The notes: generated from the letters alone by a model not told the origin. A DNA stretch of 64,000 nt from Spirochaetota bacterium (GCA_022703505.1 JAKLDN010000002.1:310001-374000); one strand, 5' to 3'. Shown: positions 7,311-60,874, counted from the first letter of the stretch. Translations and numbers: made by a program.

Positions 7311-7326
7311 CGTCTTTCTCCACGGA

Positions 7327-7355: not shown

Positions 7356-7387
7356 TCGACAACTCTGTCTCTTTAAGGAAAGCGCTC

Positions 7388-7780: not shown

Positions 7781-7846
7781 TCCCGCCGGGGCGCCTCCGC
7801 GGCGCCCCCCGCGGCACCCCATCCTCGTGACGACTGGAGTTTTCGA

Positions 7847-10830: not shown

Positions 10831-10847
10831 ACATCTGTCCGAAAGAC

Positions 10848-10881
10848 GACGGCCGCCCCGACGGGCGGCCGTCCTGTTTTT
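10848..10881 (+). terminator. Rho-independent terminator after secF
   Basis: Perfect 11-bp stem (GACGGCCGCCC with its complement), loop CGAC, then CTGTTTTT. It lies 17 bp after the secF stop. Confidence 0.9.
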
Positions 10882-10970
10882 GGCTGCCGCCCGAAGGCTT
10901 TACAAAAGGCCCTTTTTTTCGTATATTCAGTCGGCGCATGGCGCATGGCGCATGGCGCCGGGCGGCAGTA

Positions 10971-11089
10971 GCCGCGCGGCGAGAGGAAGTGATTATAAAA
11001 TGTGCTATCGCGCATGGCGCCGTCCGTCCGAGTACGGCCGGGCGGCGCAAGGAAGCGATTGTAGTATGTGCTAACGCACATGGCGCCGT
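10971..11089 (+). repeat. Tandem copies of the tRNA-Cys upstream region and 5' end
   Basis: Two 53-bp copies, 10971-11023 and 11037-11089 (period 66 bp), agree at about 44 of 53 positions. Each has a -10-like hexamer (TATAAA, TAGTAT) followed by CGCATGGCGCCGT, the last bases being the first bases of the tRNA. A still shorter copy with TATATT and CGCATGGCGCCG lies at 10921-10960. Only the last copy leads into a full tRNA, and its TAGTAT at 11062-11067 is the likely promoter -10. Confidence 0.75.
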
Positions 11090-11153
11090 ACCCAAGCGGT
11101 AAGGGAGAGGTCTGCAAAACCTTCATGCGGCGGTTCGATTCCGCCCGGCGCCT
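11082..11153 (+). tRNA. tRNA-Cys (GCA)
   Basis: A 72-nt cloverleaf can be drawn by hand. The acceptor stem GGCGCCG pairs with CGGCGCC, the D-arm uses CCC/GGG, and the anticodon stem GAGGT/ACCTT has the loop CTGCAAA (anticodon GCA). The T-arm is GGCGG-TTCGATT-CCGCC and the discriminator base is T, as expected for cysteine. The 3' CCA is not encoded. The 3' acceptor strand and discriminator are also part of the downstream terminator hairpin, which is unusual. Confidence 0.95.
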
Positions 11154-11200
11154 AAACGAAAAGCCCCCGTCAGGGGGCTTTTCGTTTAGGCGCACTACAA
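11136..11200 (+). repeat. tRNA-Cys 3' end plus terminator, copy 1
   Basis: 65 bp from the T-loop of tRNA-Cys to CACTACAA. It is repeated at 11414-11478 with only 3 differences. Two of the differences are compensatory (C-G to T-A) within the hairpin, so the structure is conserved. Confidence 0.85.
11148..11193 (+). terminator. Long perfect hairpin overlapping the tRNA-Cys acceptor strand
   Basis: Two 21-bp perfectly complementary arms (11148-11168 and 11173-11193) enclose the loop GTCA. The first six bases of the arm are the tRNA's own 3' acceptor strand and discriminator. The central part (AAAAGCCCCC/GGGGGCTTTT) is a typical terminator stem with its U-tract inside the stem. Confidence 0.8.
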
Positions 11201-11250
11201 CAAATTCCTTTCGGAAAACGGCCCGAAGGGCCGTATGGAGCCCGGCGCCT

Positions 11251-11287
11251 AAAACAACAGCCGCCCCGAAGGGGCGGCTGTTGTTTT
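11251..11287. terminator. Bidirectional hairpin terminator
   Basis: Perfect 17-bp arms beginning AAAACAACAGCC and ending GGCTGTTGTTTT, loop GAA. T-runs lie on both strands. Confidence 0.7.
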
Positions 11288-11413
11288 ATCGAGGCGAGGG
11301 CGGAATCGAAGGGTCCGAGCGCGGCGCGATAGCGCCGAAGAGGCGCCAAGGAAGGCGCCGGAAGCGAGGACCCCGGCCCGGAGAACCGAGCCAGGAGGGC
11401 GAGGTTCGCAGGG

Positions 11414-11478
11414 CGATTCCGCCCGGCGCCTAAATGAAAAGCCCCCGTGAGGGGGCTTTTCATTTAGGCGCACTACAA
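11414..11478. repeat. Displaced copy of tRNA-Cys 3' end plus terminator
   Basis: This is the second copy of the 65-bp block at 11136-11200, but no tRNA body precedes it. Upstream, 11299-11308 is the inverse of its first ten bases (CGATTCCGCC). Similarity continues past the block (CCTTTCGGAAA, GGAGCCCGGCGCCT and a further hairpin). About 280 bp has therefore been duplicated, or the gene between has been lost. Confidence 0.75.
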
Positions 11479-11527
11479 TCGTTACCTTTCGGAAAGGGGC
11501 ACGAAGCGCCATGGAGCCCGGCGCCTG

Positions 11528-11561
11528 AAACGACGGCCGCCCTTCGGAGCGGCCGTCGTTT
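11528..11561. terminator. Hairpin terminator at the end of the small Cys-protein gene
   Basis: Perfect 13-bp arms AAACGACGGCCGC and complement with loop CCTTCGGA. On the minus strand it ends in a T-run, and it touches the stop codon of the 11561-11821 gene. Confidence 0.7.
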
Positions 11562-11821
11562 TAGGCCCAGATCCCTCCGTTCTCCGAGCCCGCATCGCCG
11601 CTCCCGCCCGGACGGGGCCCTTCCCGGCGTTCCATCGGTTCGATCGCCTCGAAGGCCGGACAGTGCAGGCCCGTCGCGGCGAAGACCTCCGCGGAGGGGA
11701 GGTTCCGGGACTTGATCCCGAAGACCTCGCAGCCCCGGGGATACGCGGGTTCCCAGGTCACGATGAAGTGTCGGCAGGCCAGGCAGTTCGGCGCGCGATC
11801 CGGGGGCAGTCCTTGGGGCAT
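11561..11821 (-). CDS. Small conserved cysteine-rich protein
   Basis: 86 residues. The start at 11821 is chosen because CGGAGAG precedes it and the conserved part begins just after it. Cys13, Cys16, Cys31 and Cys54 in the pattern NCLACRHF, PRGCEVFGIKSR and GLHCPAFE look like a zinc or Fe-S site. Short proteins with this CxxCRHF...GxKSRxxPS...CxxFE pattern occur in several phyla and I know of no firm function. It is transcribed divergently from the rhomboid gene and ends in a bidirectional terminator. The C-terminal 20 residues are Gly/Arg/Pro-rich and probably not conserved. Confidence 0.7.
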   Translation of the reverse strand: MPQGLPPDRAPNCLACRHFIVTWEPAYPRGCEVFGIKSRNLPSAEVFAATGLHCPAFEAIEPMERREGPRPGGSGDAGSENGGIWA

Positions 11822-11846
11822 CGGGCTCTCCGAGGTTCCGGCCGGG

Positions 11847-11875
11847 TTGAACCGACCGTGGATTCTCCGTACATT
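11847..11875 (+). promoter_or_regulatory. Promoter of the rhomboid gene
   Basis: TTGAAC at 11847-11852 and TACATT at 11870-11875 are 17 bp apart. The -10 ends 7 nt before the ATG at 11883 and no Shine-Dalgarno is visible, so the transcript is probably leaderless. Confidence 0.55.
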
Positions 11876-11882
11876 ATAGACC

Positions 11883-12521
11883 ATGAACAGCCGATCGGTC
11901 CTTCGCCGTCCCTTCCGATACCAGTTCCACAACGCGACCCTGGTCCTGATCGCGGTCAACGTGGGAGTCTTTTTCCTGACCCAGATCTCCCCCGATTTCC
12001 TGGTCAACCTGGCCATGGTGCCCGCCTATGTGGTCCGGGGGCGGTTCTGGCTGCTCTTCACCTACATGTTCGCCCACGGGGGGATCTCCCACCTCTTCTT
12101 CAACATGCTCGGGCTCTTCTTCTTCGGCACCCATGTGGAACGCGAGTTGGGTTCCTGCGAGTTCCTGCTGTTCTACCTCCTGACCGGTGTCCTGGCGGGA
12201 GCCTTCTCCTTCGCGGCCTACGCGGCCACGGGAGCCTGGATCACCTTCCTGATCGGTGCCTCCGGGGCCATCTTCGCGGTGCTGCTGGCCTTCGCGGCCC
12301 TCTTCCCGGGATCGATCATCCACGTCTGGGGGATCCTGCCCGTTCGGGCCCCGGTCCTGGTCCTGGCGTACACGGCCATCGAGATCGCGTCCCAGCTCTT
12401 CTCCTTCCGGAGCGGGGTGGCCCACCTGACCCACCTGGCCGGGTTCGGGTTCGCCTACCTCTACCTCCTCGTCCGCTTGGACATCAACGCGTTCCGTAGG
12501 TTCTTTCCCAGGGACCGCTGA
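11883..12521 (+). CDS. Rhomboid-family intramembrane serine protease
   Basis: 212 residues with six hydrophobic segments, matching the minimal rhomboid core. The catalytic serine is Ser127 in GASGAIF, the catalytic histidine is likely His184 in LTHLAGFGFAYLY, and the oxyanion residues are near His70/Asn74 (HLFFNMLGLFFFG). It cleaves membrane-spanning substrates inside the cytoplasmic membrane; the substrate is unknown. The short basic N terminus (SRSVLRRPFRYQF) is cytoplasmic. It is followed after about 50 bp by a Nif3-like gene that seems to have its own promoter, so it is probably monocistronic. Confidence 0.92.
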   Translation: MNSRSVLRRPFRYQFHNATLVLIAVNVGVFFLTQISPDFLVNLAMVPAYVVRGRFWLLFTYMFAHGGISHLFFNMLGLFFFGTHVERELGSCEFLLFYLLTGVLAGAFSFAAYAATGAWITFLIGASGAIFAVLLAFAALFPGSIIHVWGILPVRAPVLVLAYTAIEIASQLFSFRSGVAHLTHLAGFGFAYLYLLVRLDINAFRRFFPRDR

Positions 12522-12538
12522 TTCTCGGAAGCCTCCAT

Positions 12539-12568
12539 CTGGACCCTTCGAAGCGAGGCCGATATACT
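12539..12568 (+). promoter_or_regulatory. Promoter of the Nif3-like gene (leaderless type)
   Basis: CTGGAC at 12539-12544 and TATACT at 12563-12568 are 18 bp apart. The -10 ends 6 nt before the ATG at 12575. Confidence 0.55.
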
Positions 12569-12574
12569 GGAATC

Positions 12575-13336
12575 ATGAACCTGCCCGAACTGGACGCGTG
12601 GTGCCGCTCCTTCCTGGAGATCGAGGCGTTCAAGAAGGTCGACGACTCCCTGAACGGGATCCAGGTGGGACGGAGCGAAGGTCCCGTCACCCGGGTCGCC
12701 TTCGCGGTGGACGCCTGCGCGGAGACGATCCGCCGGGCCGCGGAGGAGAAGGCGCAGGTCCTCTTCGTCCACCATGGCCTTTTCTGGGGATCCCCGGCGC
12801 GCATCCAGGGAGCCTTGATGGAGAGGGTGCGGACCCTGCTGGACCGGGACATGGCCTTGTACGCCTGTCACCTTCCCCTGGACGCCCACCCGGAGTACGG
12901 CAACAACGCGGTCCTGGCCCGGATGCTCGGACTGTCCGGGGTGAAGCCTTTCGGGTTCTACAAAGGGATCTCCCTGGGCTTCCGGGGTGTCCTGGATCCG
13001 GCTCCGACCCTTGAGGAGGCGATCCGGAGGATCCTCCCGGACGGGAGCAAGCCCCGGGCCGTCCTGCCCTTCGGTCCCGACCGGATATCCAGCGCCGCGG
13101 TGGTCTCCGGGGGGGCGCCCCACGAGCTCTTCGAGGCCGTGGAGGAGGGGCTGGACCTGTACGTCACCGGGGAGCCTTCCCATTCCGTGTACCACGCAGC
13201 CCAGGAGTCGGGGATCAACTTCGTGGCCGCCGGACACTACGCCACCGAGGTCTGGGGTGTCCGGGCGGTGGCCGAAAAGCTGGCCCGGGAGACGGGAACG
13301 GAGACGGTGTTCGTGGAAGTCCCGACGGGGCTCTGA
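12575..13336 (+). CDS. Nif3-like dinuclear metal center protein (YbgI/YqfO family)
   Basis: 253 residues. Family signatures are DDSLNGIQVG, the metal-binding VHHGLFWG, YACHLPLDAHPEYGNN, and the C-terminal VTGEPSHSVYHAAQESGINFVAAGHYATEVWG. These supply the His and Glu/Asp ligands of a di-metal site in a toroidal hexamer. The family has been linked to GTP cyclohydrolase-like activity and to metal handling, but the physiological role remains uncertain. The lspA gene begins 23 bp downstream, so the two may be co-transcribed. The length is normal for members without the extra PII-like insert. Confidence 0.92.
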   Translation: MNLPELDAWCRSFLEIEAFKKVDDSLNGIQVGRSEGPVTRVAFAVDACAETIRRAAEEKAQVLFVHHGLFWGSPARIQGALMERVRTLLDRDMALYACHLPLDAHPEYGNNAVLARMLGLSGVKPFGFYKGISLGFRGVLDPAPTLEEAIRRILPDGSKPRAVLPFGPDRISSAAVVSGGAPHELFEAVEEGLDLYVTGEPSHSVYHAAQESGINFVAAGHYATEVWGVRAVAEKLARETGTETVFVEVPTGL

Positions 13337-13359
13337 TCATATGAACCGGGAGAGTATCG

Positions 13360-13905
13360 ATGGATAGCGACAAGCCGAACAGTCTCCGCCCCTTCCTCCT
13401 GACCGCCGGGATCCTGATCGCGGACCAGGTTTCCAAGGCCCTGATCGTGGACCTGATCCCCCGCAACACCATCGCGGTCCGTGGCCTGGGCGATTTTCTG
13501 TGGATCGTCCATGCCCGCAACACGGGCATAGCCTTCAGCATGGGGGACGGGCTTCCTCCCTGGATGCGCATGGTCCTCTTTTCCCTCCTGCCTCTGGCCT
13601 TGATCGCCGGAATCCTCATCTACTACTTCCGCACCGACGAGACCACCCCGGTGCAGCGCTGGGCCCTGGCCGCCATCGTGGGGGGAGGGCTGGGAAACGT
13701 CGTGGATCGTCTTTTCCGGCCGGAGGGAGTGGTGGATTTCGTCAGCGTGAAATTCTACGGGCTTCTCGGCATGGAACGGTGGCCGACCTTCAACGTCGCG
13801 GACTCCGCCGTCGTCCTGGGGGCCCTCCTCGTCGCGGCCACGAGCCTGCTTGCGCCCGGTCCCGGGACTCCGGTCCGGGACAAGGACGGCGGATCGGCCG
13901 GATGA
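13360..13905 (+). CDS. lspA: Lipoprotein signal peptidase (signal peptidase II)
   Basis: 181 residues with four membrane helices. The two catalytic aspartates are Asp116 in GNVVDRLF and Asp148 in FNVADSAV, and the family segment NTGIAFSM is present. It removes the signal peptide from prolipoproteins after lipidation in the inner membrane. Many lipobox-bearing proteins in this window are expected substrates. Its stop overlaps the start of the next small membrane-protein gene, so they form an operon. Confidence 0.96.
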   Translation: MDSDKPNSLRPFLLTAGILIADQVSKALIVDLIPRNTIAVRGLGDFLWIVHARNTGIAFSMGDGLPPWMRMVLFSLLPLALIAGILIYYFRTDETTPVQRWALAAIVGGGLGNVVDRLFRPEGVVDFVSVKFYGLLGMERWPTFNVADSAVVLGALLVAATSLLAPGPGTPVRDKDGGSAG

Positions 13906-14204
13906 GGGATCCGAAGGGCGATCCGGTTCCCGCCGCCCGGACCCCCGGCGCCCGGGCGCGGGGAATCCTGCTCTTCCTCGCGGCCACGATCCTGAACTTC
14001 CTGACCGCCTCGGCCTTCTTCTTTGGATTCCTGGCCCTCTGGGGACTCGTCCTGGCGCCTTGGCTCAAGCTCCCCACGTCCTCTCCGGTGATCCTCGCGG
14101 CCTTCGTCCTGGCGGTCGCGGGATCCGGCATCCTCTACCGCGCGGCGGTCAAGATCTACCTCCGGAAGACCGGCCGGGCCCCGGGCCATTTGACGAAATC
14201 CTGA
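13902..14204 (+). CDS. Small two-helix membrane protein downstream of lspA
   Basis: 100 residues starting with ATG at 13902, a 4-bp overlap with lspA. A basic, Pro-rich cytoplasmic N terminus (about 1-22) is followed by two long hydrophobic segments (about 23-52 and 57-80) and a basic C-terminal tail (KIYLRKTGRAPGHLTKS). I do not recognise a family with certainty. A similarly placed small membrane protein follows lspA in some spirochaetes, but I cannot confirm homology here. Translational coupling to lspA suggests a membrane-related accessory role; the function is unknown. Confidence 0.7.
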   Translation: MRDPKGDPVPAARTPGARARGILLFLAATILNFLTASAFFFGFLALWGLVLAPWLKLPTSSPVILAAFVLAVAGSGILYRAAVKIYLRKTGRAPGHLTKS

Positions 14205-14255
14205 TTCGGCTGCATACTCGAATCCCCCCATCACGATCACGCAAGGAGTCTTCAT

Positions 14256-15593
14256 ATGGCGTCGTTCGAGGATAAGCTCGCCTTGGCGGGCGTGCGAGTG
14301 CCGGAGGTCCGCCTGCCCGCCCGCGGCGCGGACTGGGAGGCCTGGGCCGTGGTGGCCTGCGATCAGTACTCCAGCGAGCGGGAGTACTGGGAAGGCGTCA
14401 AGGACCGCATCGGCGGCAAGCCTTCGACCCTGAACCTCATTTTCCCGGAATGCTACCTGGAGGACTCGGACAAGGACGAGCGGATCCTGCGCATCCAGGC
14501 GGCCATGCGGGACTACCTGGACCGCGGCGTGCTCGAAAGCGCCGGAGAGGGCTTCATCCTGGTCGAGCGCCGGACCCCCTTCGAGGCGGAGCCCCGCAAG
14601 GGCCTCATGATCGCCGTGGACCTGGAGAAGTACGAGTACGGCAAGGGCTCGGCCTCCCTCATCCGCCCGACCGAGGGAACCATCGTGGAGCGCCTGCCCC
14701 CGCGCATGAAGATCCGCCGGGGGGCTCCCCTGGAGCTCCCGCACATCATGCTCCTGATCGACGACCCCGGCCGGACGGTCATCGAGCCCGTGTACGAGGC
14801 CCGGGAGACCCTGAAGCCGATCTACGATTTCGAGCTGATGACCGGCTCCGGCCATGTCCGGGGCTGGCAGGTCCGGGGCGAGGCGGCCCTGGGCGGGATC
14901 GCGGACGCCCTGACCCGCCTGGCCGATCCGGCGGCGTACAAGCGGAAATACGGCAAGGACGGGGTCCTCCTGTTCGCGGTGGGGGACGGCAACCACTCCC
15001 TGGCCACGGCCAAGGCGGTCTGGGAGGAGATCAAGGGGGCGAACGCCGGGAAGCCCGGGATCGAGCGCCATCCCGCCCGCTGGGCCCTGGTGGAGCTGGT
15101 CAACATCTACGACGAGGGTCTGCCCTTCCACCCGATCCACCGGGTCCTCTTCCAGGCCGACGAGAAGACCTTCCTGGCGGAGCTGGCCGCGCACGGGGAC
15201 TGCCGGGTCGAGGAGGCCTCCAAGGCCGCGGCGTTCGCGGCCGTGGACGAGGGGGCCGCGGAGCACCGCTTCGCCATCCTGACCGCGGGCGGGACCCGGC
15301 TGGTCCGCTTCCCCCGGCCCAAGGCCAACCTGGCCGCCGGGACCATCCAGGAGTTCCTGGACGGGTACCTGGCGAGGCACCCCGGGACCGGCATCGACTA
15401 CATCCACGGCCGGGAAAGCCTGGAAACCCTGGCGGCCAAGCCCGGGAACCTCGGCATCTACCTGCCCCCCATCGACAAGGCCGGGTTCTTCGGCACCGTC
15501 ATCCGGGACGGGGTGATGCCCAGAAAAACCTTCTCCATGGGCGAGGCGCCGGAAAAGCGGTTCTACATCGAGGCGCGGAAGATACTGCCGTAG
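14256..15593 (+). CDS. DUF1015 family protein
   Basis: 445 residues, full length for DUF1015. Characteristic features are the N-terminal VPEVRLPARG segment, VVACDQYSS, the central VGDGNHSLATAKAVWEEI and the C-terminal PPIDKAGFFGTVIRDGVMPRKTFSMGEAPEKRFYIEAR. Members are frequently encoded next to serine biosynthesis genes, as here, where serA and serC follow on the same strand. The biochemical role is not established. The ATG at 14256 is preceded by CAAGGAGTC at good spacing. A promoter with a clear -35/-10 pair separates it from serA, so the serine genes can also be expressed independently. Confidence 0.92.
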   Translation: MASFEDKLALAGVRVPEVRLPARGADWEAWAVVACDQYSSEREYWEGVKDRIGGKPSTLNLIFPECYLEDSDKDERILRIQAAMRDYLDRGVLESAGEGFILVERRTPFEAEPRKGLMIAVDLEKYEYGKGSASLIRPTEGTIVERLPPRMKIRRGAPLELPHIMLLIDDPGRTVIEPVYEARETLKPIYDFELMTGSGHVRGWQVRGEAALGGIADALTRLADPAAYKRKYGKDGVLLFAVGDGNHSLATAKAVWEEIKGANAGKPGIERHPARWALVELVNIYDEGLPFHPIHRVLFQADEKTFLAELAAHGDCRVEEASKAAAFAAVDEGAAEHRFAILTAGGTRLVRFPRPKANLAAGTIQEFLDGYLARHPGTGIDYIHGRESLETLAAKPGNLGIYLPPIDKAGFFGTVIRDGVMPRKTFSMGEAPEKRFYIEARKILP

Positions 15594-15602
15594 GGGTCGT
15601 CC

Positions 15603-15630
15603 TTGACACCCCGCGGCGGCATGGTAAGAT
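15603..15630 (+). promoter_or_regulatory. Strong promoter for serA
   Basis: TTGACA at 15603-15608 and TAAGAT at 15625-15630 are 16 bp apart, directly after the DUF1015 stop codon. It gives a leader of about 130 nt before serA. Confidence 0.75.
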
Positions 15631-15636
15631 GGATCG

Positions 15637-15767
15637 ATAAAGGGAAGAACCAACCGATCTCCAGGGATGGCCCGCGTACCGGAGCCCGAGGCTCCGGGGC
15701 GCTTCGGCCGCCCCGGACGGCCGTCTTTCCTTGATCAGTATCAAGCATCGAGTTCCAGGAGGTTTTC
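15637..15767 (+). promoter_or_regulatory. Structured 5' leader of serA (possible attenuator)
   Basis: The leader has a 9-bp stem TCCGGGGCG / CGCCCCGGA (15693-15717, loop CTTCGGC). This is followed by an overlapping pairing option (CGGCCG...CGGCCG) and CGTCTTTCCTT, which resembles a weak terminator tract. A long leader is rare in this window, where most promoters lie close to the start codon. I do not recognise a known riboswitch class. Confidence 0.4.
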
Positions 15768-16640
15768 ATGGTTATCCTGCTTGCGGACGCCTTCCTTCCC
15801 GACCTGCCGAAGCGCCTGGCGGCCTTCGGCGAGGTGACCCAGGACATGGGCCGCGTGGGGGAGGCGGAGGTGATGATCGTCCGGTCCAAGACCAAGGTCG
15901 GGAAGGACGTGATAGACAAGGCCCCGAAGCTCAAGTTCGTCATCCGCGGCGGCGTGGGGGTGGACACCATCGACGTCCCCTACGCGGAGTCTAAGAAGAT
16001 CAAGGTGACGAACACCCCGGAAGCCTCCAGCGTGGCCGTGGCGGAGCTGGCCTTCTCCATGATGCTGGCCCTGGCCAGCCGGATCTGCGAGGCCGACGCC
16101 TCCATGAAGCAGGGCAAGTGGCTCAAGAAGGACCTGGAGCGGACGGAGCTCATGGGCAAAACCCTGGGCCTGGTCGGGATCGGCCGGATCGCCCGGGAAG
16201 TCGCCCTCCGGGCCAAGGCCTTCGGCATGGAGGTCATAGCCTTCGACAAGTTCGTGCCGAAGAGCGACGTCGCCGCGATGGTCTCCCTGGAGGAGGTCTG
16301 GGCCAAGTCGGACTACATCTCCCTCCACGTGCCCCTGACGGACGAGACCAAGGGCATGATCAACGCGGCGGCCATCGCCAAGATGAAGAAGGGCGTCCGC
16401 GTCGTGAACACCTGCCGCGGACAGGTCGTCTCCGAGGAGGACGTGGCCGCGGCCCTGGCCGACGGCCGCCTGGGCGGCTACGGGGCGGACGTGTTCTACT
16501 CCGAGCCCCCCGAGGGCTCGCCCCTGCTCTCGGCCCCCCGGACCGTCCTGGCGCCCCATCTGGGCGCCTCCACGGAGGAGAACCTGGCCCGACTGGGGGA
16601 CTGCATCGTGGACAGGATGAAGGAATACGTGAAGAAGTGA
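15768..16640 (+). CDS. serA: D-3-phosphoglycerate dehydrogenase (short type)
   Basis: 290 residues, catalytic and NAD-binding domains only, without the C-terminal ACT regulatory domain of longer SerA. The Rossmann motif is LGLVGIGRIAREVALRAKAFGMEVIAFD. Catalytic residues are the Arg in RGGVGVDTID, a Glu region near VFYSEPPEG, and the His in LAPHLGAST. It catalyses 3-phosphoglycerate to 3-phosphohydroxypyruvate, the first step of serine synthesis. The identity as SerA rather than another 2-hydroxyacid dehydrogenase is supported by serC directly downstream. Its start has AGGAGG at 15757-15762. The stop codon lies within a GTGAATAGG-type repeat. Confidence 0.92.
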   Translation: MVILLADAFLPDLPKRLAAFGEVTQDMGRVGEAEVMIVRSKTKVGKDVIDKAPKLKFVIRGGVGVDTIDVPYAESKKIKVTNTPEASSVAVAELAFSMMLALASRICEADASMKQGKWLKKDLERTELMGKTLGLVGIGRIAREVALRAKAFGMEVIAFDKFVPKSDVAAMVSLEEVWAKSDYISLHVPLTDETKGMINAAAIAKMKKGVRVVNTCRGQVVSEEDVAAALADGRLGGYGADVFYSEPPEGSPLLSAPRTVLAPHLGASTEENLARLGDCIVDRMKEYVKK

Positions 16641-50266: not shown

Positions 50267-50311
50267 GTATTTTGTTGACAGAGTAAAATACATCGCCTAC
50301 AATGTAAAATA
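50267..50311 (+). promoter_or_regulatory. Promoter and putative operator of the symporter operon
   Basis: TTGACA (50275-50280) and TACAAT (50298-50303) are 17 bp apart, a near-consensus promoter. GTATTTT (50267-50273) and AAAATAC (50285-50291) are a perfect 7-bp inverted repeat across the -35, and TGTAAAATA at 50304-50312 is a third half-site-like copy. The GntR-type regulator encoded downstream is the natural candidate to bind here. Confidence 0.65.
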
Positions 50312-50479
50312 ACGCGGAAGTAGAGTCCGATGGCCGCGTGGAAAGCCGTACCGCGACGAGCCCCTGCCGACCGCCCGTCGAGGACGATTCCCGCCCGAAG
50401 GCTCACGCGCCTTGGACTTGACGACCGGTCCCGGTATAGGGACCGGAATGATCCATTTCCTCATTTCGGGAGGTTCCAG

Positions 50480-51790
50480 ATGGCAAGCGGGGAGAAAAAG
50501 AAGGGCTGGCTCGGGTGGTATTTCAACACGCCCCTCGTGTGGAGAATCCTGACGGCCCTTGTCACGGGCGCGATCGTGGGCCTCCTGGTGGGTCCCTCGA
50601 TCTCGGTCATAGCGCCCTTGGGAAGCTTGATGATCCGGCTCCTGAAGATGATCATCCTGCCGTTGATCTTCTTCGCGATCGTGATGGGCATCGGAAGCAT
50701 GCCCGCCTCCAAGATCGGGAAGGTGGCCGGCAAGATCCTGATCTACTATTTCGGAACCACCCTGTTCGCGGCGATCTTCGGCCTGATCCTGGCGAACATC
50801 TTCAAACCCGGCCTGGGTCTTTCGTTGACCGCGACCGCCGTGAAGGCCGCCGAGGGGGCGACCGTGACCAGCCCGGCCATCGGGGACGTCTTCCTGAACA
50901 TGGTGCCGGACAACGTGGCCGCCGCGTTCGCCAAGGGAGCTTACCTCCAGGTCCTGGTGTTCGCCCTCTTCTTCGGCCTCGCCGTTTCCTTCCTGCGGGA
51001 TCACAAGGATGACCGGATCAGCGAAGCGGTCCTGACGGTGTACAGGTTCTGCGAGGGCGGGGCGGAAATCATGTTCCGCATCACCCACGCGGTCCTGCAG
51101 TTCGCGCCCATCGGTATCTTCGCGATCATCTCGGGGATCTTCGCCGTGGAGGGGACGAAGCTCATCAGCTCCGCGGCCTCCATCATAGCACTCTGCTACA
51201 CGGGGTACGCGTTCCAGCTCTTCGTCGTCTACGGGATCGCCCTGACCCTGAGCAAGCTGAACTACTTCCAGTTCCTGTCCCGGGCCAAGGATGCCACCCT
51301 GATGGCGTTCTCGACCTGCTCCAGCAGCGCGACCCTGCCCCTGACGATCAAGACCTCCGAGGAGAAGCTCGGCGTTCCCCGCAGCATCGGAGGGTTCACC
51401 CTGCCGCTCGGGTCGCAGATCAACCTGGACGGGGAAGCCTACTACCAGATCATCGCGGTGTTCACCGCGGCCTTCGCGTCCGGTATCCACCTGACCTTCG
51501 CCCAGCAGATGGTCGTCGTGTTCGTCGTGACCGTGGGCACCATGGGGACCGCCGGCATCGCCGGCTCCGGACCGGTGGTGCTGCTGGCGGTGATGGGCAT
51601 GGTGGGGTTGAACGTGGAAGCCGGCTCGATGGTGGCGGCCGTGTTCGCCCTGGTGCTCGGCATCGACGTGATCCTCGACATGGGCCGGACCGCCGTGAAC
51701 GTCACGGGCGACATGGTCGGCACCTGCATCGTGGCCAAGAGCGAGGGGCTGTTGAAGAAATGGGGCCCCAAGGGGACGTTTGTCGCCTGA
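50480..51790 (+). CDS. Dicarboxylate/amino acid:cation symporter (DAACS family)
   Basis: 436 residues from ATG 50480, with GGGAGG upstream; a longer reading is rejected. The fold has eight membrane helices and two hairpins: the serine-rich hairpin STCSSSATLPLTIKTSEEKLGV, PLGSQINLDGEAYYQIIAVFTAAFA, and NVTGDMVGTCIVAKSEG near the end with the Asp/Asn substrate site. Family members import glutamate, aspartate, C4-dicarboxylates or serine/threonine with sodium or protons. Here it leads a cluster with a serine dehydratase and a DapA-type aldolase, so serine, threonine or a hydroxy-amino acid is plausible. The leader is about 170 nt. Confidence 0.92.
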   Translation: MASGEKKKGWLGWYFNTPLVWRILTALVTGAIVGLLVGPSISVIAPLGSLMIRLLKMIILPLIFFAIVMGIGSMPASKIGKVAGKILIYYFGTTLFAAIFGLILANIFKPGLGLSLTATAVKAAEGATVTSPAIGDVFLNMVPDNVAAAFAKGAYLQVLVFALFFGLAVSFLRDHKDDRISEAVLTVYRFCEGGAEIMFRITHAVLQFAPIGIFAIISGIFAVEGTKLISSAASIIALCYTGYAFQLFVVYGIALTLSKLNYFQFLSRAKDATLMAFSTCSSSATLPLTIKTSEEKLGVPRSIGGFTLPLGSQINLDGEAYYQIIAVFTAAFASGIHLTFAQQMVVVFVVTVGTMGTAGIAGSGPVVLLAVMGMVGLNVEAGSMVAAVFALVLGIDVILDMGRTAVNVTGDMVGTCIVAKSEGLLKKWGPKGTFVA

Positions 51791-51820
51791 TCCCGGTCCG
51801 ATAGAATGATGTGAACGGAG

Positions 51821-51863
51821 GGTCATTGCAGAGGCGGGGACCTGTACCGTCTTTGCAATGACC
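51821..51863 (+). promoter_or_regulatory. Hairpin between the symporter and serine dehydratase genes
   Basis: GGTCATTGCA (51821-51830) and TGCAATGACC (51854-51863) are exact 10-bp complements around a 23-nt loop. It follows the symporter stop by 30 bp. It may be a processing or attenuation site that sets different expression for the transporter and the enzymes. Confidence 0.55.
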
Positions 51864-51925
51864 GTCTCTCGAGGCTAGCATTGTCCGGGGCATTCGCACG
51901 GGCGGATCGAGCGGGGGATAGGTCC

Positions 51926-53497
51926 ATGAACAGACTTCCGGCCAGCATTTTCAACGACGTCATCGGTCCGGTCATGCGGGGACCGTCCAGTTCCCACGTC
52001 GCGGGAGCCGCCCGGATCGGTTCCCTGGTCCGGCAGTCCCTGAGGGGAAACGTCCAAGAAGTCGAGGTGGAATTCGACGTCAACGGCTCCCTCGCGGAGT
52101 CGTACCACGGCCACGGTTCGGACATCGGCTTCGCCAGCGGTATCCTGGGGATGGAACTGACGGACGAGTCGGTGCCCCTGGCCTGCAGGATCGCGGAAGA
52201 GCGGGGGATCGACGTCCGGTACAAGGTCCTGGACTACGGAGCGGTCCATCCCGGGAATTACCGGATCACCGCGCAAGCCCCGGACGGGACCCGGATGCGC
52301 TGGGAGGCGATCTCGGTCGGCGGCGGCATGGTCAAGATGGAAAAGTTCAACGGCTTCGAGGTCGCAATCTGCGGGGATTTCCACGAATTGCTGATAACCG
52401 TCGACTCGGGAGGGCCTTCCCTGGAAGGCGTGCTGGAACGGATCAAGGAAGCGATCCCCCGGTATGAGGACATCGCCGTATGCGAGCGGTCCCCCCGGAC
52501 CCTGGTCAACATGAAGCGGAGCGCCGATATCGACGAGGGTACGCTCCAGGCCCTGAGACGGATTCCGATGGTGCTGGATGTCGTCTCCCTTGCTCCGATC
52601 CTCCCGACCCGGTCGAGCGCCGACTGCCGGGTGCCCTTCGTGACCGCGGAACAGGTCCTGGAATGGATGGCCGCGAACGGCCGGAAGGAATTGTGGGAAC
52701 TGGCGGCCCTCTACGAGGCCCGGCGCGGGGATACGGACCAGGACGACGTGATGGAGAAGATGTCCCGTCTCGTCGACATCATGAGAAAGAGCATCCGCGA
52801 CGGACTGGCGGGAACCGAGTACGCCGACAGGATCCTGGGCCCTCAGGCGTACAAGATCGACGAGGGCATCAAGAACAACCGTCTCATTCCGGGCGACATC
52901 CTGAACCGGATCATCAAGTACATCACGGCCGTCATGGAAACGAAGAGTTCCATGGGTGTCATCATCGCCGCCCCCACCGCGGGATCCTGCGGCTGCCTGC
53001 CCGGAACGATCCTGGGGGCCGGGGACGCGATGGATTTTTCCCGGGAGGAGATCACCAAGGCCATGCTGGCGGCGGGGTTGATCGGGGTGTTCGTCTCGGA
53101 AGGTGCCACGTTCTCCGCGGAGGTCGCGGGCTGCCAGGTCGAGTGCGGGGCGGGTTCCGCCATGGCGGCGGCCGGTCTGGTCCAGTTGTTCCACGGCAGC
53201 GCGGAGCAATGCCTGGACGCGGCTTCCATGGCCTTCCAGAACGTCACGGGGCTGGCCTGCGACCCCGTGGCCAACCGGGTGGAGGTCCCCTGCCTGGGAA
53301 AGAACATCATGGGAGGTTCCAACGCCGTGGCCTGCGCCAACATGGCCCTGGCGGGGTACGACAAGGTCATACCCCTGGACGAGACGATCGCCGCGGTGTA
53401 CGACATCGGCACGAAACTGCCGCTGGAGTTGCGCTGCACCTTCGGGGGGCTGGGCAAGACCAGGACCTCTCTGGACATACAAAAACGGCTTACATAA
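51926..53497 (+). CDS. Iron-sulfur L-serine dehydratase-like enzyme (fused beta-alpha)
   Basis: 523 residues from ATG 51926 with CGGGGG upstream. The N-terminal beta domain (about 1-160) has the hallmark GPVMRGPSSSHVAGAARIG. The alpha domain (about 190-520) has SMGVIIAAPTAGSCGCLPGTILGAG, AEVAGCQVECGAGSAMAAAG and ACDPVANRVEVPCLGKN, holding the cysteines of an oxygen-sensitive [4Fe-4S] cluster. The family deaminates L-serine to pyruvate and ammonia; paralogues acting on other beta-hydroxy amino acids are possible. In this cluster the product keto acid could feed the DapA-type enzyme. It is the second gene after the symporter. Confidence 0.88.
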   Translation: MNRLPASIFNDVIGPVMRGPSSSHVAGAARIGSLVRQSLRGNVQEVEVEFDVNGSLAESYHGHGSDIGFASGILGMELTDESVPLACRIAEERGIDVRYKVLDYGAVHPGNYRITAQAPDGTRMRWEAISVGGGMVKMEKFNGFEVAICGDFHELLITVDSGGPSLEGVLERIKEAIPRYEDIAVCERSPRTLVNMKRSADIDEGTLQALRRIPMVLDVVSLAPILPTRSSADCRVPFVTAEQVLEWMAANGRKELWELAALYEARRGDTDQDDVMEKMSRLVDIMRKSIRDGLAGTEYADRILGPQAYKIDEGIKNNRLIPGDILNRIIKYITAVMETKSSMGVIIAAPTAGSCGCLPGTILGAGDAMDFSREEITKAMLAAGLIGVFVSEGATFSAEVAGCQVECGAGSAMAAAGLVQLFHGSAEQCLDAASMAFQNVTGLACDPVANRVEVPCLGKNIMGGSNAVACANMALAGYDKVIPLDETIAAVYDIGTKLPLELRCTFGGLGKTRTSLDIQKRLT

Positions 53498-53535
53498 GAT
53501 GGCAGATGAATAGCCTACCATTTGGAGAGCCGACC

Positions 53536-54474
53536 ATGTCCAAAGCCGAGAAGGACTATGCCGTCACCCCGGGCAGCCTGACCGCCTATATCAGCCGGGA
53601 CCTGGAAAACCGTATCCTGTCGGGGGATCTGGAGGACGGGGATCTGTCCCTCGTGACTCTCGCCGCGCATTACAACGTCAGCATCACCCCCCTTCGGGCG
53701 GCGGTCCAGGAGTTGGTCGACAAGGGGGTCATGATCAAGTTGCCGAACCGGCGCCTGCGCGCGAATCCCGGGAAGGCCCGGAAGGCGGAGCCCCGCCGGG
53801 TCGTGGCCGTCCCCCCGACCCAGCGGGACTGGAGCGAGGTCCTGATCAAGGAAGTGGTGCGCGCCAGCCTCAGCCCCGATCCCGTCTACCTGCGGGAAGA
53901 CACGCTCGCGAAGAAGTTCGGCGTAGGCAGGTCCATCATTCGGCAGGTCCTGAGCCGCTTCGTCGGGGCGGGGCTCATCGACCACATTCCCCGCAAGGGA
54001 TGGATGGCCCACCCCTTGGGTGTGGAGGACATGAACGCCTACCTGACGGTGCGGGAGATACTGGAACTCAAGGCCCTCAAGCTGGCGCGTCCGCGGCTGG
54101 ACATGGAGGAACTCGCGAGAATCCGGGAGGTCTGCAAGAGCGGGGCGAGGGGCAACCTCAAGGACTTCGACAACAGCGTCCACGAGTGCATCATCAACGC
54201 CTCCGGGAATCGTTACATCCGCCAGTTCTTCCAGCAGCACGTCGCCCGGTATTACACGGAACTCTTCTATTTCGCGGCCCCCGAGACCGCGGTGGTGGAG
54301 GAGATGTCGAACGAGCACCTGGGCATCATCGACGCCCTTCTGGAGCGCCGCTGGCCCGCGGCGGAAAAACTTCTTTCGGCGCATATTTTCGGGCAGGCCG
54401 TCGTCCTGACGAAGCTGCTGGAAAAGGAACGGGGCGAGGCGCCCGGTCGGAACGACGCCCGGAAGCGGTTCTGA
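53536..54474 (+). CDS. GntR-family regulator with two winged-helix domains
   Basis: 312 residues from ATG 53536 (GGAGAG upstream). It shows two successive GntR-type winged helices: the first (about 12-75: AYISRDLENRILSGDLEDGD, HYNVSITPLRAAVQELVDKG) and the second (about 105-160: EDTLAKKFGVGRSIIRQVLSRFVGAGLIDHI). These precede an all-helical FCD ligand-binding domain (about 170-285) with its metal-binding Asp/His set in FDNSVHECIINASGNRYI and NEHLGIIDALLERR. One wHTH is the rule for GntR/FadR proteins, so the duplication is unusual. It probably controls its own cluster through the AAAATAC-type sites at 50267-50311. Confidence 0.85.
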   Translation: MSKAEKDYAVTPGSLTAYISRDLENRILSGDLEDGDLSLVTLAAHYNVSITPLRAAVQELVDKGVMIKLPNRRLRANPGKARKAEPRRVVAVPPTQRDWSEVLIKEVVRASLSPDPVYLREDTLAKKFGVGRSIIRQVLSRFVGAGLIDHIPRKGWMAHPLGVEDMNAYLTVREILELKALKLARPRLDMEELARIREVCKSGARGNLKDFDNSVHECIINASGNRYIRQFFQQHVARYYTELFYFAAPETAVVEEMSNEHLGIIDALLERRWPAAEKLLSAHIFGQAVVLTKLLEKERGEAPGRNDARKRF

Positions 54475-54475
54475 A

Positions 54476-54754
54476 ATGCGTGTCCGCCTGGCCGCGATGG
54501 GACAATTGGAAAAGGACTTCGGGGGCGGGAGGTTCGACTTCGAGTTCCCGCCGGATTCCACCCTAGCCGACCTGCTGGTTAAAATCGGCGACGACTTTTC
54601 CGGCCGACTGCCCGAGTCCCTGTGGAACCGGGCCGAGCGCAAATTCCGCGGCGCCGTCGTGATGATGTCCGACGGCGCGGCCCTTCGGGACCCCGCCCAA
54701 CCTCTGAAGGACGGGCAGGAAATCCTGATCTTCAAGGTACTGGTCGGCGGCTGA
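54476..54754 (+). CDS. MoaD/ThiS-like ubiquitin-fold protein
   Basis: 92 residues ending in the double glycine of the MoaD/ThiS family (FKVLVGG), with the beta-grasp pattern MRVRLAAMGQLEKDF and STLADLLVKIGDDF and GQEILIFKVL. Such proteins are adenylated and thiocarboxylated at the terminal Gly and donate sulfur to molybdopterin. A stand-alone copy next to a tungsten AOR gene is a recurrent arrangement and suggests dedicated tungstopterin synthesis. It starts 1 bp after the GntR stop and is 40 bp upstream of the AOR gene. A short hairpin (CCCCCG/CGGGGG) lies in that gap. Confidence 0.88.
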   Translation: MRVRLAAMGQLEKDFGGGRFDFEFPPDSTLADLLVKIGDDFSGRLPESLWNRAERKFRGAVVMMSDGAALRDPAQPLKDGQEILIFKVLVGG

Positions 54755-54794
54755 CGCCGAGCGAACCCCCGCCTCCGGGGGAAGGAGATGAGCG

Positions 54795-56672
54795 ATGTCC
54801 GATACACTTGGCGGATATGCCGGGAAATGCCTTCACCTGGATTTGAGCGTCCCGTCGGGCCGGACCGAGGACCTGGACCCGGAAATCCTGCGGGATTACC
54901 TGGGTGGTACGGGATACGCGGCCAGGATCCTCTATGACGGGCAGAAGCCCGGGATCGATCCGCTTTCGCCCGAGGCGATGCTGGTCGTCTCGACCGGCCC
55001 CCTGACGTTGAACGCGGTTCCCGGCGGAGGCAGCGTGGAACTCTGCTTCAAGTCTCCCCTCACGGGCGGTTGGGGCGAGTCCCGCGCCGGCAGCGACTTC
55101 GGGCCGGACCTGCGCCGGGCCGGGTTCGACCACGTCGTCATCCGGGGCAGGGCCCCGCGGCCCGTCTACGTGGTGATACGGGACGGGAAGGCCGAGTTCC
55201 GGCCCGCCGAGCATCTGGCCGGGAAGCTGGTCTCGGAAAAACTCGCGATGATCCGAAGGGAGCTTCCGGACGGGAGGTTTTCCATCGGCTGCATCGGCCC
55301 CGGCGGCGAGAACGAAGTCGCCTTCGCGGGGGTCCAGTTCGGGGATCGGGCGGCGGGCAGGGCGGGGGCCGGGGCGGTCCTCGGATCGAAGAACCTCCTG
55401 GCGATCGCGGTGGAAGGCCGGAACGAGGTCGTCGCCGCGAAGCCCGCGGAACTGAAAGAGCTCCTCCGCACGTACTTCACGCAACTGCGCTCGAACCCGG
55501 TCTCCATCGGGTTCCACGACAACGGGACCGTCGGAGACCTCGCGGCGAACGACGAGAAGGGGGACTGGCCCACGAAGAACTGGCAGTCCAATTCCTGGGG
55601 CAAGGGCGCCGTCCTGCTGGACAGCTTCGTCCGGCGCAACTTCATCAAGCCCTATCCCTGCTACCGGGGTTGCACGATTTCCTGCGGGCGGAAGGTCCGC
55701 GTTCCCGACGGAGCCTACGCGACGGTCGAGCACGGGGGAGCCGAGTACGAGTCCATTTCCTGCTTCACCGCCTACGTCCAGAACGAGGACATGGACGCCG
55801 CCGTCCATTGTTCCCACCTGTGCAACGAATACGGCGTGGACACGATCTCCGCCGGGGCGGTCATAGCCTTCGCGCTCGAATGCGCGGAAGCGGGAAGTCT
55901 CGCGGCCTCGGACATCGCCGGGCTGGACCTCTCCTGGGGCAACTCGAAGGTACTGCCCCGGCTGGTCCGGATGATCGCCCTCCGGGAGGGGATCGGCGCC
56001 GTGCTGGCCGACGGGGTTCGGGCCGCGGCCGCGAGGATCGGCAAGGGTTCCGAAGCCTTCGCCGTGCACGTGAAAGGGCTGGAAGGCCCGGCCCACGATC
56101 CCCGGTCGGGCAAGTCCCTGGCCGTCAGCTACGGGACCGGGAACCGGGGGATGTGCCACATCCACCCCGCGGAGGCCATGGCCTGGGACTCGGGCAAGAT
56201 GGATTGGGGCCTGTGCAAACACGGCCTGCCGGACCCGAACGGGGTGGACCGCTGGGACGAGCCCGGGAAGGGTTCCGCGGCCAAGCTCATCCAGGACGGC
56301 CTCAACCTGCCCGACATCCTGGGTACTTGCAAGTTCTTCATGTACGCGGGCATCGGAGTGGACGAACTGGCCGCGATGCTCTCCCTGATAACGGGACGGG
56401 ACATCGGGCCGGCCGAGCTTCTGGCGGTTTCCGAGCGGGTGATCAACCTGCAGCGCCTGTTCAACCTGCGGGAGGGATTCACCGCCGCCGACGACCTCCT
56501 GCCCGCGCGGGTCTGCGCCGTGCCCTCCTTCGGAAGGTACGCGGGGACGGCGGAGTGCGGCATCTCGGATTTCCCCGGAATGCTGAGGGAGTACTACGAG
56601 GCCCGGGGCTGGGACGCCGGTACGGGGATTCCCACGGACGCGACGCTGAAACGGATCGGCCTGCGCCGATGA
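54795..56672 (+). CDS. Tungsten-dependent aldehyde:ferredoxin oxidoreductase
   Basis: 625 residues, full length for the AOR family. Domain 1 opens GYAGKCLHLDLSVPSGRTE and includes YLGGTGYAARIL and STGPLTLNAVPGGGSVELCFKSP. The [4Fe-4S] cysteines are Cys289, Cys293, Cys297 and Cys512. The first three are spaced C-x3-C-x3-C, one residue longer than the usual C-x2-C-x3-C, which deserves notice. The tungstopterin contacts (EYESISCFT, GLDLSWGNSK) are present. It oxidises an aldehyde to the acid and reduces ferredoxin in the cytoplasm. With the neighbouring aldolase it would remove the aldehyde product. GGAAGGAGA precedes the ATG. Confidence 0.92.
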   Translation: MSDTLGGYAGKCLHLDLSVPSGRTEDLDPEILRDYLGGTGYAARILYDGQKPGIDPLSPEAMLVVSTGPLTLNAVPGGGSVELCFKSPLTGGWGESRAGSDFGPDLRRAGFDHVVIRGRAPRPVYVVIRDGKAEFRPAEHLAGKLVSEKLAMIRRELPDGRFSIGCIGPGGENEVAFAGVQFGDRAAGRAGAGAVLGSKNLLAIAVEGRNEVVAAKPAELKELLRTYFTQLRSNPVSIGFHDNGTVGDLAANDEKGDWPTKNWQSNSWGKGAVLLDSFVRRNFIKPYPCYRGCTISCGRKVRVPDGAYATVEHGGAEYESISCFTAYVQNEDMDAAVHCSHLCNEYGVDTISAGAVIAFALECAEAGSLAASDIAGLDLSWGNSKVLPRLVRMIALREGIGAVLADGVRAAAARIGKGSEAFAVHVKGLEGPAHDPRSGKSLAVSYGTGNRGMCHIHPAEAMAWDSGKMDWGLCKHGLPDPNGVDRWDEPGKGSAAKLIQDGLNLPDILGTCKFFMYAGIGVDELAAMLSLITGRDIGPAELLAVSERVINLQRLFNLREGFTAADDLLPARVCAVPSFGRYAGTAECGISDFPGMLREYYEARGWDAGTGIPTDATLKRIGLRR

Positions 56673-56709
56673 TGACCAGACGAGAATAATAACCGGGATG
56701 GAGGATGGA

Positions 56710-57594
56710 ATGAGTCTGCACGGTGTGTACGTAGTGACCGTCACTCCCTTTACGCGGGACGGGAAGGTGGATCTCGCGGGGATCGAGAAGAACGCCGACT
56801 GGCTGGTGAAGCAGGGAGTCCACGGCCTGCTCCCCCTGGGGAGCACCGGGGAATTCGCCAGCCTGGAGGAGGAGGACAAGAAGGCCATCGTCGACCGGGT
56901 CCTGAAGACCGTCGCCGGCAGGGTTCCCGTGGTGGTGGGAGCGACGGCGGAAACGACCGACAAGGCGATCCGGAACGCGCGTTACGCCGAAAGCGCGGGC
57001 GCCGCGGGGGTGCTCGTCCTCCCCCCGTACTACTACACCCCTGACCAGGAAGAGATCTACGACCATTACCGACGCATCGCGGAAGCCGTCAAGATCCCCG
57101 TGATGATCTACAACAATCCGGCCAGCTCGAAGGTCGACATCCGGGCCGACACGGTGGCCCGGCTTGCCCGGGTGCCCGGGATCGAGTGCATCAAGGAGAG
57201 CACCGGGGACATCCGCCGGATCACCGAAATACGGCTCCTGACCGAGGACAAGCTGACGGTCTTCTGCGGCTGGGAGGACATGGCCTACGAATCCTTCGTG
57301 ATGGGGGCCCGGGGCTGGGTCTGCGTCCTGGGCAACATCCTGCCCAAGGAATGCGTCGAGCTCCACGACCTGATCGTCGTGAAGAAGGACCTTCCGGCGG
57401 CCTGGACCCTGTACCGGAAGCTGCTCCCCCTGCTCCGCTACCTGGAGTACGCGGGCAAGACCCAGAAGGCCCTCAAGTACGTGCTGGACAAGACGGGCCT
57501 GGCCGGGGGCGCCTCCTCCAGCCCCAAGCGCCCTCTGGATCCGGAGGACAAGGCCGCCCTCGACAGGATGCTCGCGGACCTGGGGAAGGCGTAG
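56710..57594 (+). CDS. DapA/N-acetylneuraminate-lyase family aldolase
   Basis: 294 residues from ATG 56710, chosen because GGAGG lies 5 nt before it; ATG 56698 is an alternative. The class I aldolase Schiff-base lysine is Lys162 (CIKESTGD) and the catalytic tyrosine is Tyr134 (MIYNNP). The carboxylate-binding motif is LGSTGEF rather than the TTGE of true dihydrodipicolinate synthase. The C-terminal extension (about 270-294) is Pro/Lys-rich. Context with a tungsten AOR and serine dehydratase argues for a pyruvate-dependent aldolase making or cleaving a keto-hydroxy acid, not lysine synthesis. The exact substrate is unknown. Confidence 0.88.
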   Translation: MSLHGVYVVTVTPFTRDGKVDLAGIEKNADWLVKQGVHGLLPLGSTGEFASLEEEDKKAIVDRVLKTVAGRVPVVVGATAETTDKAIRNARYAESAGAAGVLVLPPYYYTPDQEEIYDHYRRIAEAVKIPVMIYNNPASSKVDIRADTVARLARVPGIECIKESTGDIRRITEIRLLTEDKLTVFCGWEDMAYESFVMGARGWVCVLGNILPKECVELHDLIVVKKDLPAAWTLYRKLLPLLRYLEYAGKTQKALKYVLDKTGLAGGASSSPKRPLDPEDKAALDRMLADLGKA

Positions 57595-59766: not shown

Positions 59767-60648
59767 CTACTTCTTCTTCATCGCCTTGTGCTGCATGGCC
59801 AGGGCCATCTGGTAGGCGGTCTGGAGCTCCAGGGCGTAGTGCGGGAAGTCGGAGTAGGTGGCTCCCGTCACGACGTCCGCGTAGGCGAAGACCATGTCGT
59901 CCGCGGCGGTGTACTCGGCGGCCTTGGCGCCGGCGTCGACGTTCTTGTCCTCGGCGAGCGTGACCTTGGCCTTCTTCATGGTGAACGCGGCGAAGTCCGT
60001 GGTGGGATTGGCCTTGAAGAAGTCCAGGAGGAACTCGTTGTTGTAGCGGTACCCGATGGATCCGGCGTTCAGAGGCATGTACACGGAGGCCTTGTTGGCC
60101 TTGTCCATGTGGCCGTAGTGGACGGTCTGGGAGGCCTTCTTGCCGAGGGTGACCTTGAGCCCGTCGATGGTGACGTTGTAGAGGTTGTCCTCCCGGGCGG
60201 CCTTGGCGTAGGCGGCGGCGCGGATGGGGTTGGACATGAGGCCCTCGAAGTCGCGCTCGTACTGGCGGGCGGGCTTGGCGAACTTGTCCTTGCCGGGGGT
60301 GAACTGGGACCACACGTAGGTTCCGTCTTCCTTGAGGTTGTAGACGTAGAACATGTAGCCCTTGATCATCGGGTCGGGATTGGCGGTGTTGGCCAGGGGA
60401 TCCGGCACGCGCACCACGGCGCCGTCCAGGAGGGCCTTCCCGTCGGGGGAGTTGTACTCGGCCCAGCCGCCCGGACCCTGCCACTCGGCCAGAGACGCGG
60501 ACACGACGGCGCCCTTCTTGTCCACGGTCACGGTGGCTTCGCCGATGTATCCGCCCTGGTGAGCCACGAAGTACTTGGTCGCGGTCTGCCCGAACGCCGT
60601 CCAGGCGCAGAGCAGGAGCGCGATGGTGATGATTGCGATCCTCTTCAT
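59767..60648 (-). CDS. Exported FMN-binding-domain protein
   Basis: 293 residues from ATG 60648 (AGGAGGAT upstream). A signal peptide (about 1-20, ending AFGQ) precedes a first FMN-binding-like half (YIGEATVTVDKKGAVVSASLAEWQGP) and a C-terminal half ending with DVVTGATYSDF. The TGAT at residues 261-264 fits the Dxx(S/T)GAT motif flavinylated by Ftp/ApbE enzymes in RnfG/NqrC-type proteins, so Thr264 may carry covalent FMN. It would act in periplasmic electron transfer. No rnf or nqr gene adjoins it. It is probably monocistronic, ending before the repeat cluster. Confidence 0.75.
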   Translation of the reverse strand: MKRIAIITIALLLCAWTAFGQTATKYFVAHQGGYIGEATVTVDKKGAVVSASLAEWQGPGGWAEYNSPDGKALLDGAVVRVPDPLANTANPDPMIKGYMFYVYNLKEDGTYVWSQFTPGKDKFAKPARQYERDFEGLMSNPIRAAAYAKAAREDNLYNVTIDGLKVTLGKKASQTVHYGHMDKANKASVYMPLNAGSIGYRYNNEFLLDFFKANPTTDFAAFTMKKAKVTLAEDKNVDAGAKAAEYTAADDMVFAYADVVTGATYSDFPHYALELQTAYQMALAMQHKAMKKK

Positions 60649-60874
60649 GGGATCCTCCTTCAAAGTGCCCGCCTTGAATGCAGAAAGGGGGCTCCGCCTC
60701 CGGGTTCAAGGCCTCGGGGAGGTTAGTACCAATATGAATTCTCCAAATGACCGATTTAGTCAAGATGAAAATATAGATTGTAGATTATAGGTAAAAAAAT
60801 ATATAAACAGGGCTGCCTCTTTGTACATCTGCGGCAGTGGCGTGGCGCCGGATTCCGGTGTATAGTCCCTGGAA
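60649..60874. other. A+T-rich divergent intergenic region
   Basis: About 226 bp without a gene. The stretch 60735-60815 is the most A+T-rich in the window (ATATATAAAC, GATTATAGGTAAAAAAA) and holds TTGACT, TATAAT and similar hexamers on the minus strand. The promoters of the FMN-binding-protein gene are probably here, but no single pair stands out. Confidence 0.5.
60861..60866 (+). promoter_or_regulatory. Probable -10 of the cyclase-like gene (leaderless type)
   Basis: TATAGT ends 8 nt before the ATG at 60875. No clear -35 is seen at 17 bp. Confidence 0.4.

Follow-up and report, generated by a model that had tools for sequence, protein, structure and literature searches.

We propose that six consecutive genes of a Spirochaetota bacterium form an operon that takes up a hydroxylated proline, with 3,4-dihydroxyproline the likeliest, and oxidizes it to 2-oxoglutarate. 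We give this reading, in which the reactions, the substrate and the regulation are all predicted from sequence, a probability of roughly 40%. An SDF-family symporter would import 3,4-dihydroxyproline. The cluster of an Fe-S dehydratase of the L-serine ammonia-lyase superfamily (hereafter SDH) would then bind the 3-hydroxyl, His63 would take the alpha proton and water would leave, giving the ring imine pyrroline-4-hydroxy-2-carboxylate. Because the nitrogen sits in the ring, no ammonia would be lost at this step. A DapA-family enzyme, acting through a Schiff base at Lys166, would remove water and ammonia to give 2-oxoglutarate semialdehyde, which a class I tungsten aldehyde:ferredoxin oxidoreductase (AOR) would oxidize to 2-oxoglutarate, reducing ferredoxin. 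A putative MoaD/ThiS-like protein of the WorX type probably aids the making or insertion of the pterin cofactor, and a GntR protein probably acts as a repressor by binding a palindrome that overlaps the -10 box. The identity of the substrate is our best guess. The SDH chemistry needs a hydroxyl at C3 and the deaminase needs one at C4, so 3,4-dihydroxyproline would fit both, and the three enzymes would make a complete route. This compound is present in diatom cell walls (PMC5501833, PMC4557024), and the dehydratase AcnX converts 2,3-cis-3,4-cis-dihydroxyproline slowly to pyrroline-4-hydroxy-2-carboxylate (PMC5144071).

The six open reading frames lie at 50480-57594, all on the plus strand, in the window, by which we mean the whole 64,000-nt stretch of DNA that was analyzed. 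They encode the cation:amino acid symporter (50480..51790; PF00375, 367.8 bits), the SDH, a beta-alpha fusion that matches SDH_alpha and SDH_beta and falls below the NCBIfam cut-offs (51926..53497), a GntR/FCD regulator with two HTH domains (53536..54474), the putative WorX-type protein (54476..54754), the AOR or WorL (54795..56672; AFOR_N 216.8 and AFOR_C 367.3 bits) and the DapA/DHDPS-family Schiff-base lyase (56698..57594; PF00701, 215.2 bits). The gaps between them are, in operon order, 135, 38, 1, 40 and 25 bases. An earlier note on this DNA had described these six genes, in this order and on a single strand, and our gene calls bear it out. Its family assignments are supported by Pfam for five of the products (symporter, SDH, GntR, AOR and DHDPS family). 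The sixth, MoaD-like, has no Pfam or NCBIfam match; this 92-aa protein directly upstream of the AOR is kept in two relatives (orthologues 49-65%), and we assign its family from its size, its Gly-Gly terminus and its place. The near-consensus promoter that the note placed ahead of the genes is also there: TTGACA-N17-TACAAT, at 50275..50303 on the plus strand, has 11/12 consensus matches, and the block is kept in the orthologous loci L040 and L041. The two HTH domains that the note read in the regulator are borne out by PF00392 matches in two stretches beside the FCD domain (PF07729), and this regulator is conserved in two relatives. A near-palindrome, TACATCG-CCTA-CAATGTA, lies over the -10 box at about 50289-50306 with one mismatch in the window. 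It is perfect in L041 (TTACATTG-CCTA-CAATGTAA) and weak, only partial, in L040. We regard it as a candidate GntR operator.

The co-occurrence of the six genes claimed in the note extends to related genomes, where we looked for it and found the set whole in two. The full order is present in G022 (contig L037, equivalent to L040), with protein identities of 65-86%, and in G030 (L038, equivalent to L041), with identities of 49-88%. G030 belongs to another family of the same taxonomic order, and the gene order is thus kept across two families. Apart from orthologues of the six-gene locus, the AOR loci that we inspected in relatives, with flanks of ~1.5 kb, had no DapA, SDH or MoaD gene nearby. This excludes a chance association, and the view of the six genes as one conserved unit is supported. 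The window type of SDH is rare in the phylum, occurring in 1 of 345 sampled genomes besides G022 and G030; this rarity, together with the scattered distribution of SDH relatives, suggests horizontal spread of this type. A different arrangement is seen in a genome of the same genus (L039, G002:C133, 4838-8448), where an ABC-F fragment overlapping the AOR gene comes straight after M29 (96%), with DapA next. Either the first four genes have been deleted here or the arrangement stems from a join made in assembly. Downstream in the window, the minus strand encodes a 298-aa protein (59767-60663) with a signal-like N-terminus and no Pfam or NCBIfam match, which contains VVTGATYS, reminiscent of FMN-binding motifs.

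We scanned named genomes for relatives of the SDH and obtained 55 loci, whose neighbouring genes, in other phyla, point to proline-type imino acids as substrates. An OCD-family gene directly adjoins the SDH relative on the same strand in L043, L047, L048, L050, L053 and L071, and a proline-racemase-family gene does so in L042, L044, L074, L080 and L086. OCD and proline-racemase genes account for 12/142 genes within 1.5 kb versus 3/276 beyond 4 kb (Fisher p=0.0003), a comparison that is indicative only, the loci being partly related. Three neighbours reach curated cut-offs for hydroxyproline enzymes: in L074 a racemase-family protein scores 642 bits against the 550 required of a trans-3-hydroxy-L-proline dehydratase, and the glycyl radical enzymes encoded in L051 and L087 score 1169 and 1390, respectively, against 1100 for trans-4-hydroxy-L-proline dehydratase. 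Xaa-Pro peptidases adjoin the SDH relatives in L063-L065 and L084, and L055 and L074 lie in clusters with DapA, an FAD oxidase, an aldehyde dehydrogenase and an ABC transporter. The roles of these proline-type neighbour genes are established (eLife 2014, PMC4113996). Homologues in Bacteroidota, Planctomycetota and Verrucomicrobiota (about 45%) mostly had no informative cluster, and one on a Serratia plasmid had no useful gene context. The glycyl radical enzyme of L045 was dropped as support for hydroxyproline: its sequence looks like pyruvate formate-lyase. We also dropped a D-glucosaminate-type pathway, the SDH neighbours being proline-linked, and a route from beta-hydroxyaspartate with an iminosuccinate reductase (BhcD-like OCD): the OCD neighbours fall below that cut-off, and the HypD/T3LHypD neighbours favour hydroxyproline. 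Indeed, these neighbours reach the cut-off of no OCD subfamily, so the presence of OCD does not by itself identify its substrate.

The DapA-type enzyme is likely a pyrroline-4-hydroxy-2-carboxylate deaminase, judging from its motifs. It has the Schiff-base Lys166 and Tyr138 (own numbering; Lys162 and Tyr134 in the earlier note). It passes the DHDPS model TIGR00674 (218.7 vs 206.2 bits), but this model does not discriminate because a homologue in the hydroxyproline operon of Bacillus badius passes too. That operon contains genes for an FAD oxidase, two racemase-family proteins, an aldehyde dehydrogenase and Xaa-Pro peptidases together with the DapA homologue. The window genome encodes a DHDPS elsewhere, whose score of 299.6 bits clears the family cut-off by a wide margin. 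The window enzyme lacks two DHDPS hallmarks, the Arg138 equivalent (YNNPASSK) and TTGE, which is replaced by GSTGE. Several hydroxyproline-operon enzymes also have GSTGE, so the LGSTGEF site alone is no sign of an aldolase. Two motifs, CGx(E/D)D (CGWED in the window) and a C-terminal LExxGK...K, are common to the window enzyme and those of the B. badius hydroxyproline operon, of hydroxyproline-type clusters in Paracoccus, Agrobacterium and L055, and of L042, L051 and G726; both are absent from DHDPS and from the 3NA8 group. The motif definition is our own and was derived from homologues whose clusters are hydroxyproline-type or SDH-linked. Individual positions vary, and L181 and L074, both from hydroxyproline clusters, match only partly. 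In a DapA tree, which included no characterized deaminase, the deep branches did not resolve, and no hydroxyproline-operon member was a firm partner of the window enzyme. Among plasmid homologues, the nearest full-length ones (about 41%) include some from uncharacterized clusters with dihydropyrimidinase. Two such plasmid loci, from Azospirillum and Agrobacterium (L123, L126), share a conserved cluster in which dihydropyrimidinase and DUF3830 stand with a DapA homologue, a large FAD oxidoreductase and an amino acid ABC transporter.

A linear substrate is the live rival to a cyclic one. The SDH would deaminate a 2-amino-3,4-dihydroxy acid to a 4-hydroxy-2-oxoacid, which the DapA-type enzyme would cleave to pyruvate and an aldehyde or, when starting from 2-amino-2-deoxypentonate, would dehydrate to 2-oxoglutarate semialdehyde; the AOR would oxidize the aldehyde in either case. 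Such a route fits the known chemistry of SDH, of DapA-family enzymes, whose Lys and Tyr are present here, and of AOR, and needs no activity on a cyclic substrate. It is close to the earlier note, for which the simplest account was a retro-aldol cleavage yielding pyruvate and an aldehyde. We nevertheless consider it unlikely, since the SDH relatives adjoin proline-type rather than sugar-acid genes and since the DapA motifs match those of hydroxyproline-operon enzymes, which deaminate and dehydrate rather than cleave.

The neighbourhoods also suggest how SDH relatives may work elsewhere. At OCD-linked loci, 3-hydroxyproline would be dehydrated to pyrroline-2-carboxylate and then reduced to proline. 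We found no OCD or proline-racemase gene in the window genome (G000), G022 or G030 (completeness 98.5%, 64% and 95%, respectively), and the 3-hydroxyproline-to-proline route appears closed to these three spirochaete genomes. The SDH product therefore most likely goes via DapA and AOR. One could still imagine two branches in one operon, with the SDH dehydrating 3-hydroxyproline to pyrroline-2-carboxylate and with DapA and AOR finishing the breakdown of 4-hydroxyproline, the oxidase for which would be encoded elsewhere. The OCD-linked SDHs fit 3-hydroxyproline, and another locus of the same genome, L184, has a DAO-like FAD oxidase, a ferredoxin-like protein, a second FAD oxidoreductase and DapA. 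We regard this arrangement as quite improbable, however: without OCD or proline-racemase genes neither branch would be complete by known enzymes, and the tight six-gene order suggests a single route. L184 (G000:C7:47000-66500, 6549-15879, minus strand) further encodes a TAXI-type TRAP transporter, an FCD-type regulator and an aspartate kinase, its DapA being read as a DHDPS, and the cluster resembles multi-subunit imino-acid dehydrogenase clusters.

Returning to the proposed dihydroxyproline route, we consider the SDH to be a member of an uncharacterized Fe-S family and propose that it is a 3-hydroxy-imino-acid dehydratase; we know of no SDH homologue that acts on a cyclic imino acid. The SDH misses all NCBIfam serine-lyase cut-offs (213.8 vs 243.2, 149.4 vs 345.1 and 124.6 vs 161.2 bits). 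Its cluster cysteines, Cys403, Cys445 and Cys456, are invariant among 19 aligned homologues, and by alignment its base His63 equals His61 of the Legionella enzyme LpLSD, the catalytic His (PMC12647591). The Glu of the serine dehydratase motif ETxxGGL is replaced by Cys504 (CTFGGL), also invariant in the 19 homologues. Two further SDH_alpha genes are present in the window genome. Ordinary deamination of L-serine (or threonine), with DapA and AOR in unrelated roles, is very improbable: the SDH fold, cluster cysteines and base His are kept, but the missed serine-lyase models, the Cys for Glu, the two further SDH_alpha genes and the six-gene order conserved across two families all stand against it. 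For the first two of these reasons, and given the proline-linked neighbourhoods, we do not follow the earlier note in naming serine as a possible substrate. The sequence of reactions that it laid out, with SDH first, DapA next and AOR last on an aldehyde, remains the most coherent reading once serine and retro-aldol cleavage are removed from it.

In a tree of SDH sequences, the window protein groups with L040 and L041, and these are sister to L042 and L043 within a strongly supported group of eleven. The spirochaete SDHs have HPG at a motif where L042 and L043 have HPN, and the substrates of the two sets may differ. Many SDH-like family members (L046, L049, L053-L055, L074, L087 and L128), including those in hydroxyproline clusters, have Gln at the position of LpLSD His61, and their mechanism or stereochemistry may differ.

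The nearest solved relatives of the AOR are 9g7j and the Pyrococcus furiosus enzyme 1aor. Equivalents of T243, E313 and H448 are kept, and His stands at the Y427 position. PMC13328260 names the Thr, Glu and His as active-site residues and gives the name WorX to the ThiS-like neighbour of class I tungsten oxidoreductases (WORs). SDH, a DapA relative and AOR occur together in two further genomes, one Bacillota-like (L042) and one from Desulfobacteraceae (L051). L042 has the order AOR-DapA-SDF-SDH-racemase, with a symporter 74% identical to that of the window and a racemase that has no counterpart in the window genome. In L051, DapA and AOR are divergent and about 7 kb from the SDH. The AORs and DapAs of both loci are only 34-42% identical to those of the window, which suggests that the set was assembled repeatedly and independently with non-orthologous DapA and AOR. 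Because the pairing recurs with non-orthologous parts, a functional link between SDH, DapA and AOR is supported. The L042 record (JAJGRE010000003.1) is titled Calditrichales, but its genome shares its class with one of Tissierellales, and this title may be in error.

The aspartate transporters GltTk and GltPh are the closest solved structures to the symporter, and equivalents of GltPh D394, R397, T398 and N401 are kept. The position of GltPh T314, which we take to contact the side-chain carboxylate of the substrate, is a Glu (NLDGEAYYQ), and this stretch is invariant in four orthologues. The Glu argues against a plain acidic amino acid as substrate and proves nothing. An acidic amino acid had been considered from the conserved Arg, which binds acidic side chains, and is weakened by this invariant Glu.

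We tentatively suggest a wider conclusion, that anaerobes have a pathway for 3,4-dihydroxyproline that uses a new family of Fe-S imino-acid dehydratases and a ferredoxin-linked oxidation of the semialdehyde by a tungsten enzyme, and that was assembled more than once from non-orthologous parts. In the open literature, to which our search was confined, we found no description of this SDH family or pathway, or of a link between serine dehydratase and hydroxyproline or between AOR and hydroxyproline. If true, the proposal would give a function to an uncharacterized Fe-S family that occurs in many phyla under the annotation of serine dehydratase. It would supply the tungsten oxidoreductases with one more physiological substrate; only 5/92 clades of these enzymes contain a member with a defined role (PMC13328260). 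It would also reveal a means by which anaerobes gain carbon and low-potential electrons from the hydroxylated prolines in collagen and in plant or diatom walls.

We compared the proposed route with known systems. In the trans-4-hydroxyproline pathway (eLife 2014, PMC4113996), too, a deaminase of the DapA family acts before the aldehyde is oxidized to 2-oxoglutarate, as we propose here. The present operon differs in starting with a relative of Fe-S SDH, without an epimerase or FAD oxidase, and in having a tungsten AOR in place of an NAD(P) aldehyde dehydrogenase. No match to hydroxyproline 2-epimerase (PF05544) was found in G000, G022 or G030, and no hydroxyproline oxidase is encoded among the six genes or their immediate neighbours. 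AcnX (LhpI), the cis-3-hydroxy-L-proline dehydratase (PMC5144071), also converts a 3-hydroxyproline-type substrate to a ring imine, the reaction proposed for the SDH; unlike the SDH, to which it is unrelated, it belongs to the aconitase superfamily, and it acts only poorly on dihydroxyproline. The Fe-S L-serine dehydratase LpLSD (4RQO) shares its superfamily, cluster Cys triad and catalytic His with the SDH, which differs in having Cys504 for the ETxxGGL Glu, in missing the serine-lyase cut-offs and in its proline-linked neighbourhoods. Finally, the AOR resembles class I WORs with WorX (PMC13328260) in having WorL alone, a putative ThiS-like protein nearby and a predicted ferredoxin-type reaction, whereas here the enzyme would serve an imino-acid operon, with 2-oxoglutarate semialdehyde as the proposed aldehyde.
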